The notes beneath the pieces were generated by a model that saw only the letters and a program-made list of their open reading frames with translations, searched no databases and was not told the DNA's origin. Below, in pieces: positions 37,534 through 38,800 of a stretch of 64,000 nt of DNA. The stretch comes from Bacillota bacterium (GTDB lineage Bacteria; Sysuimicrobiota; Sysuimicrobiia; Sysuimicrobiales; Segetimicrobiaceae): assembly GCA_021324295.1 (NCBI GenBank), contig JAJPJJ010000119.1:1-64000 (forward strand). Reading direction: 5' to 3'. The first letter of the stretch is position 1, and every line of letters begins with the position of its first letter. A program made the position numbers and the translations under genes.

Positions 37534-38418
37534 CTACAGGAGGGAGAGTTGCCGGGGCGGGGGGGCCGGCTGCAGGTACCGGGCGGCCCGGACCCGGTGC
37601 CGCTCCTTGAACGCCTCGACGAGCCGGCCGATCGCGGATCGGTAGGCCCCCGGGGCGTACTTGCCCCGATACATGCTCCGGTATTGTGCCACGAGGTGCG
37701 GCCGCCGCCGCGCGAGGTAGCGCGCGAAGGCGTCGCGCGTGACCTCCCCGAGGTGGAGGACCGTGTGCCCGACGAACTGCGCGCCGTGGTCGCGCGCGGC
37801 CTGCACGACCGCCTCCAGGGCCTCCGGCCGGTCCGTGATGCCCGGGAGGATCGGGGCCAGCAGCACCCCGGTCCGGATCCCGGCCGAGGAGAGGTGCTCG
37901 ACCGTCCGGAGGCGCTGGGCCGGCGGGGCCACGGTCGGCTCGATCTCGCGCGCCAGAACCGGGTCGGTCGTGGCGACGCTCACGCACACGACCACCCCAG
38001 CCTGCTCGGCCAGGGCGCGCAGGACGTCGATGTCCCGGCGGATCATCGGGCAGCGGGTCACGATGCTCGCGGGCGTGCGGAAGTCGCGCAGGGTCTCCAG
38101 GATCCGCCGCGTCAGGCGGTACTTCCCCTCGATCGCCTGGTACGGGTCGGTCGCGGTGCCCACGGCCACCAGCTCGCGCCGCCAGGAGGGCCGCGCGAGC
38201 TCGCGGCGCAGGACCTCCGGCGCGTTCACCTTCACGAAGATCCGGGTGGACCACCGGTCGATGCCGTCCTCGTCGAGGAACCAGTGCGTGCGCCGGGCGT
38301 AGCAGAAGACGCACCCGTGAGAGCATCCCCGGTAGGGGTTGATCGACCAGCGGAAGGGCATGCCCTCGACCTTGTTGAGGACCGACCTCACCGTGACCTC
38401 GACGAACTCGCGGACCAT
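37534..38418 (-). CDS. Radical SAM protein, Rv2578c / spore photoproduct lyase-like family
   Basis: About 294 residues from ATG 38418 (a frame-linked ATG at 38427 is upstream). The radical-SAM cluster is in [17 protein letters not shown] (CxxxCxxC). [23 protein letters not shown] and [17 protein letters not shown] are typical of the Rv2578c-type family distantly related to spore photoproduct lyase. The promoter's -10 overlaps the first ATG, so 38418 is favoured, giving a leaderless mRNA. A LexA-type palindrome fills the promoter spacer, suggesting SOS control and a DNA-repair role. The reaction is unknown. Confidence 0.85.
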
Positions 38419-38425
38419 CGAGGCC

Positions 38426-38454
38426 ATTGTAATACGAACGTACGTTCGCTACAA
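38426..38454 (-). promoter_or_regulatory. SOS-type promoter with LexA palindrome
   Basis: On the minus strand: TTGTAG (38454-38449), 17-bp spacer, TACAAT (38431-38426). The spacer contains the perfect 14-bp palindrome CGAACGTACGTTCG at 38435-38448, matching the Gram-positive LexA box CGAAC-N4-GTTCG. The +1 falls at 38419-38418, on the second in-frame ATG. LexA bound here would block RNA polymerase directly. Confidence 0.8.
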
Positions 38455-38800
38455 TCCGCGCAGCCGCCTGGTTCGCGCGGAAGACGGCCTGGCCGTGCAC
38501 GTGCCCCGGCCGACCGGTGCCGCCCGCAGCGTGGCGCGGCCGGGCGCCGCGGCGCGCCGCACGGACGCCCGGCCCTGGACGCGTGCCGGCGCACCGCGGT
38601 CGGGACGACCGCCCGCGGCCTCGACCCGCGACACGCGATCCGGAGTCAGCCGCGGCTCGGCGCGCTGAGGCAGGCCGCGCGGCTGCGACGCAGCCGGCCA
38701 CGACCGCAGCCGCGGTCGTCCTGGAGACCCCCGGGAGCCGCGGGAAGAGGGGAGGCCGGTCCCGGCGGTCCGGAGGATGCGCGGCGGCGACGAGGTCGGC
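38455..38800. other. Intergenic region, no gene seen
   Basis: The 346 bp between the SOS promoter and the cupredoxin gene are very GC-rich and show only antisense-type open frames without family features. No promoter, RNA gene or repeat could be supported here. Confidence 0.4.

Follow-up and report, generated by a model that had tools for sequence, protein, structure and literature searches.

Organization of the Locus

The window analyzed here, a 64,000-nucleotide stretch of contig JAJPJJ010000119.1 from a genome of the Ca. Sysuimicrobiota, carries on its minus strand a gene for a little-studied radical SAM protein, preceded by a compact promoter region that harbors a palindrome. The features of the locus, with the evidence on which each of them rests, are as follows.

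37534..38418, minus strand: radical SAM protein of 294 aa, related to the Rv2578c and PA0069 families, with a predicted spore photoproduct lyase (SPL) fold (Pfam, NCBIfam, AlphaFold2 model and PDB search)
37537..37551, minus strand: C-terminal QLSLL, predicted sliding-clamp (DnaN) binding peptide (family statistics)
38302..38325, minus strand: CX3CX2C FeS/SAM motif (C32, C36, C39; alignment, invariant in 33/33 sequences)
38416..38418, minus strand: preferred start codon ATG, 7 nt after the −10 hexamer (spacing conserved in orthologues)
38426..38431, minus strand: putative −10 hexamer TACAAT, 17 bp from the −35 hexamer (read directly, and orthologues)
38435..38448, no strand assigned: predicted LexA operator (SOS box) CGAACGTACGTTCG, a perfect palindrome (read directly; genome enrichment, recA/lexA motif, orthologue conservation)
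38449..38454, minus strand: putative −35 hexamer TTGTAG, weak (read directly; TTGAC or TTGCA in orthologues)

Positions 38454 to 38416 of the minus strand read, in order, TTGTAG, CGAACGTACGTTCG, TAT, TACAAT, GGCCTCG and ATG, exactly as in the initial annotation, which had described a perfect palindrome between TTGTAG and TACAAT with an in-frame ATG downstream. The palindrome takes up 14 of the 17 bp of the spacer, and its proposed match to the Gram-positive LexA consensus CGAACRNRYGTTYG holds on both strands. The window contains a single instance of the corresponding pattern, CGAACN4GTTCG, where a first-order Markov model predicts 0.08 per 64 kb. The ORF caller begins the gene at an upstream ATG (38427) that overlaps the −10 hexamer; the ATG at 38418, favored by the initial annotation, is to be preferred, since its distance of 16 nt from the box falls within the 14–19 nt usually seen in orthologues. 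The gap of 7 nt between the −10 hexamer and this ATG leaves no room for a Shine-Dalgarno sequence, and the transcript of the radical SAM gene is likely to be leaderless, as predicted from the sequence.

The −35 hexamer TTGTAG retains three of the six consensus bases, and a promoter scan scored only the mirror-image promoter on the plus strand (TTGTAA-17-TACAAT, 9/12), as would be expected if the promoter were real and under LexA control but read mainly rightward. Against this reading, which we consider improbable, no convincing plus-strand gene lies downstream, and orthologues retain strong promoter hexamers on the strand of the gene. Since these orthologues carry TTGAC(N) or TTGCAT at the position of the −35 hexamer, the original assignment of the promoter to the radical SAM gene is supported. 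The promoter is near-symmetric (38427–38455) and scores also on the plus strand, with no clear gene behind it.

Conservation of the Operator in Orthologues

Within the order (Ca. Sysuimicrobiota), 19 of 24 assessable orthologues present the exact box at the promoter, three a form with one mismatch, one a form with two mismatches and one no box; this set leaves out G038 and G009, where the contig ends inside the intein-bearing gene. The orthologue with no box upstream (G026) sits behind ABC-transporter genes. Another genome of the order (G030) contains a locus whose sequence corresponds to record VBAP01000106, 'Terrabacteria group bacterium ANGP1', classified in Ca. Segetimicrobium of the Ca. 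Sysuimicrobiota. In the Eremiobacterota (WPS-2), the exact box was found in all orthologues examined, and the orthologue loci taken together (144 kb) contain 27 exact boxes and not a single instance of the control pattern. In most orthologues the box is flanked by TTGAC- and TATNNT-like hexamers and the start codon follows directly, but this layout is not universal, because in three Eremiobacterota loci (L031–L033) the box abuts the ATG. The recurrence of the box upstream of orthologues, which the initial annotation had proposed as a check, is thus borne out in two phyla, together with the predicted leaderless layout. That the palindrome arose by chance, or is a structural feature devoid of regulatory role, can be given only negligible weight: the number of occurrences expected in the window is small, yet above zero, but the same promoter position is conserved in orthologues of two phyla.

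Several of these orthologues (L048, L052, L056, L057, L059, and L030) contain a large in-frame insert just after the first cluster cysteines. These inserts, with open frames of 480–680 aa, are probably inteins, and intein-bearing Rv2578c proteins are already represented in NCBIfam; the copy in the window has no in-frame insert.

The Predicted LexA Regulon of the Genome

The whole genome (4.02 Mb) contains 12 sites with the CGAACN4GTTCG pattern and one with its reversed control; in a set of 43 genomes from the order, the pattern is usually more frequent than the control. The initial annotation had made its reading depend on the palindrome also being present at the recA and lexA genes of this genome, and both carry the motif: recA in its exact form, CGAACATACGTTTG, and lexA with one mismatch, CGAACATCTGTTTG, adjoining a TATAAT. 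Counting the box or its one-mismatch form, the SOS set further comprises dinB, with a box 13 nt from its start, ruvC, dnaB, radA, and an Hrq1/MrfA-type DEAD helicase, all with an upstream box, and a RecA-like gene, possibly imuA, that carries CGTACGTATGTTCG. The dnaB gene (G000:C7:39868 onward) combines a perfect SOS box with an intein. The LexA protein encoded at position 65342 of the contig that carries the radical SAM gene, about 27 kb away from that gene, matches both the DNA-binding (PF01726, 97 bits) and the S24 peptidase, self-cleavage (PF00717, 121 bits) domains.

Short GC-rich palindromes are also typical of TetR-type operators, and the palindrome might in principle be the target of such a repressor rather than of LexA. 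The same motif is carried, however, by recA, lexA, dinB, and ruvC, and distant relatives of the radical SAM gene display differently spelled LexA boxes that are best explained by LexA control (see below). We regard a TetR-type operator as highly improbable, and this reading was dropped in view of the SOS regulon that shares the motif. Perfect palindromes are also located in or near genes without a known repair role (L004, L006, L007, L008, and L011), so the motif by itself does not constitute proof. Taking the genome-wide sites and the orthologue promoters together, we consider it highly probable that CGAACGTACGTTCG is a LexA operator within the promoter of the radical SAM gene, and it is very likely, as far as can be judged from sequence, that LexA binds this site and that the gene is induced by DNA damage.

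Several other elements of this network deserve mention. The perfect box upstream of the Hrq1/MrfA-type helicase, a mitomycin-repair family, lies 37 nt before the gene (G000:C91:15207), and suggests that crosslink repair belongs to the SOS regulon of this genome. At L003, L008, and L011, perfect boxes in promoter-like contexts precede genes that are unrelated to repair or of unclear role (periplasmic binding protein, Na/Ca exchanger side, unknown), and possibly mark new SOS genes. A second full LexA (L014, G000:C7:19293) is preceded by two variant boxes, CGTACATACGTTCG and CGTACAATAGTTCG, and may define a second regulon. Lastly, a 52-kb contig (G000:C8) encodes a second recA, a dnaN-like start, a ribonucleotide-reductase-like gene and a LexA-like DNA-binding domain (L015, L018), and may be a phage or another mobile element.

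LexA Motifs in Distant Family Members

The Rv2578c/PA0069 family is present in several bacterial phyla. A Gram-positive-type box precedes the family gene in two actinobacteria, Arthrobacter (CGAACATACATTCG) and Streptomyces (CGAACATGTGTTCT), and GTTC-N7-GTTC is found upstream of six of the seven alphaproteobacterial PA0069-type genes. The PA0069-family gene on pSymB of S. meliloti carries an alpha-type LexA box and the Aeromonas gene an E. coli-type box, CTGTATATATAAACAG, upstream, while a LexA box was sought and not seen upstream of the Legionella and Subdoligranulum family genes. Since distant members carry the LexA box of their own clade, the regulation appears to have been kept while the LexA motif changed. 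Phage records yielded only distant matches (≤31% identity), which are uninformative on regulation; a distant relative (~30% identity) is encoded by the archaeal Acidianus bicaudaviruses (H45–H48).

Protein Family and Predicted Structure

The protein encoded in the window matches Radical_SAM in Pfam, and its scores against the NCBIfam models Rv2578c (NF038135, 312 bits) and PA0069 (NF033668, 245 bits) fall under the curated cut-offs of 430 and 360 bits, respectively, which places it in a sister group of both families. Its initial designation as Rv2578c-like is hence accurate in the sense of a relative, Rv2578c being the best family match, but not at the level of the equivalog, whose cut-off it misses. 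With both families it has in common the FeS motif and the C-terminal peptide.

An AlphaFold2 model built from 26 sequences, with plasmid-derived rows left out, reached a pLDDT of 88.7. Its best PDB match is spore photoproduct lyase (4fhc/4rh0/4k9r; TM 0.67–0.70 at 12–14% identity), followed by other radical SAM folds at a TM of about 0.5, while a PDB sequence search with the single window protein returned nothing significant. The protein shares with SplB the CX3CX2C cluster motif, but is shorter. Outside the cluster, no alignment column holds Cys in over 11 of the 33 sequences, so that the H-donor cysteine of SPL (C140/C141) lacks a conserved counterpart; the SPL model TIGR04070 does not match the window protein and matches only three of 33 relatives, weakly. 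The description of the gene as photoproduct-lyase-like therefore stands for the fold, but not for the chemistry. Spore photoproduct lyase was accordingly ruled out as a name: cysteine conservation is confined to the three residues of the FeS motif, and a protein of this kind should not be called SPL.

The C-terminal Peptide

Bacterial sliding-clamp peptides take the form QL[SD]LF, which the C-terminal QLSLL of the window protein resembles, and the proteins that bind the clamp are replication and repair proteins. Of 57 distinct family members, 38 carry a Q[LI]x[LF][FLI] peptide in their last 10 aa, whereas shuffled sequences would be expected to yield 0.09; because the members share ancestry, these 38 occurrences are not independent events. 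Looser criteria raise the number to 43 of 57, and 11 of 57 lack a recognizable clamp peptide even when loose criteria are applied to the last 80 aa. The peptide is absent from all 22 more distant relatives. Within the family, the linker that precedes it varies in both length and sequence, and in the AlphaFold2 model the tail has a pLDDT of about 54, as expected for a flexible peptide. On the strength of these family statistics, binding of the peptide to the sliding clamp seems reasonably probable. A literature search found no paper joining radical SAM with a clamp-binding motif.

These observations bear on the nature of the substrate. The gene could be controlled by LexA and yet encode an enzyme that does not act on DNA, modifying for instance protein or RNA under stress, with the C-terminal peptide as only a tail. 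The resemblance to SPL would accommodate this possibility, extending no further than a TM of about 0.70 at low identity where other radical SAM folds reach about 0.5, as would the missing counterpart of the H-donor cysteine. The QLxLF-type end, however, is kept after variable linkers in the family and absent from the 22 distant relatives, and clamp binding is a property of the replication and repair machinery. We deem a non-DNA substrate unlikely, and judge it probable, from sequence and modeled fold, that DNA is the substrate of the enzyme.

A Proposed Model for SOS-Induced, Clamp-Tethered Repair

The locus probably encodes an SOS-induced radical SAM repair enzyme that is tethered to the clamp. 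Because the operator occupies the spacer between the −35 and −10 hexamers, LexA bound to it should block RNA polymerase. Upon DNA damage, RecA-stimulated self-cleavage of LexA would release the promoter and give rise to a leaderless mRNA for the 294-aa enzyme with its predicted SPL fold. The QLSLL of the disordered tail would then probably bind the replication sliding clamp and recruit the enzyme to stalled forks, and there it may use radical chemistry to reverse or process a lesion in the DNA. In a broader version of this model, to which we assign an even chance, the enzymes of the Rv2578c/PA0069 clade are widespread, SOS-induced and clamp-tethered, and repair at replication forks a lesion different from the spore photoproduct, such as an intra- or interstrand crosslink, with a regulation that is kept while the LexA motif changes between phyla. 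Conserved LexA control under several LexA motifs and the clamp-type peptide would offer two independent and cheap tests of the repair role.

LexA regulation of splB (COG1533) has been described for the Alpha- and Betaproteobacteria (PMC3323433) and the Bacteroidetes (PMC8565304). The present case likewise concerns a COG1533 radical SAM gene under predicted LexA control, but in the Ca. Sysuimicrobiota and Ca. Eremiobacterota, and with a box of Gram-positive type lying in the spacer of a promoter predicted to be leaderless. Control of splB by LexA being already published, the novelty lies in the phyla rather than in the kind of regulation. Two further points are new, namely that the tested cases belong to the Rv2578c/PA0069 clade and that a clamp-type peptide is present; the pertinent passages of both reports make no mention of a clamp peptide or of this clade. 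LexA control conserved under several motifs, together with the clamp-type peptide, also suggests that the splB genes listed in published SOS regulons include at least some members of this clade, which are not true spore photoproduct lyases. No paper linking Rv2578c with LexA, or LexA with the Eremiobacterota, was found in a literature search, and a 2026 paper on a Streptomyces member of the family calls its link to DNA repair speculative (PMC12924846).

A parallel is provided by the archaea, where SplB-like genes adjoin genes for NreB, and where the related NreA has a PCNA-binding motif needed for mitomycin repair (PMC4929162). The archaeal proteins are likewise SplB-like and linked by neighborhood to clamp-associated repair, but their PIP motif resides on the Nre protein, whereas in the present case the enzyme would carry the clamp peptide.
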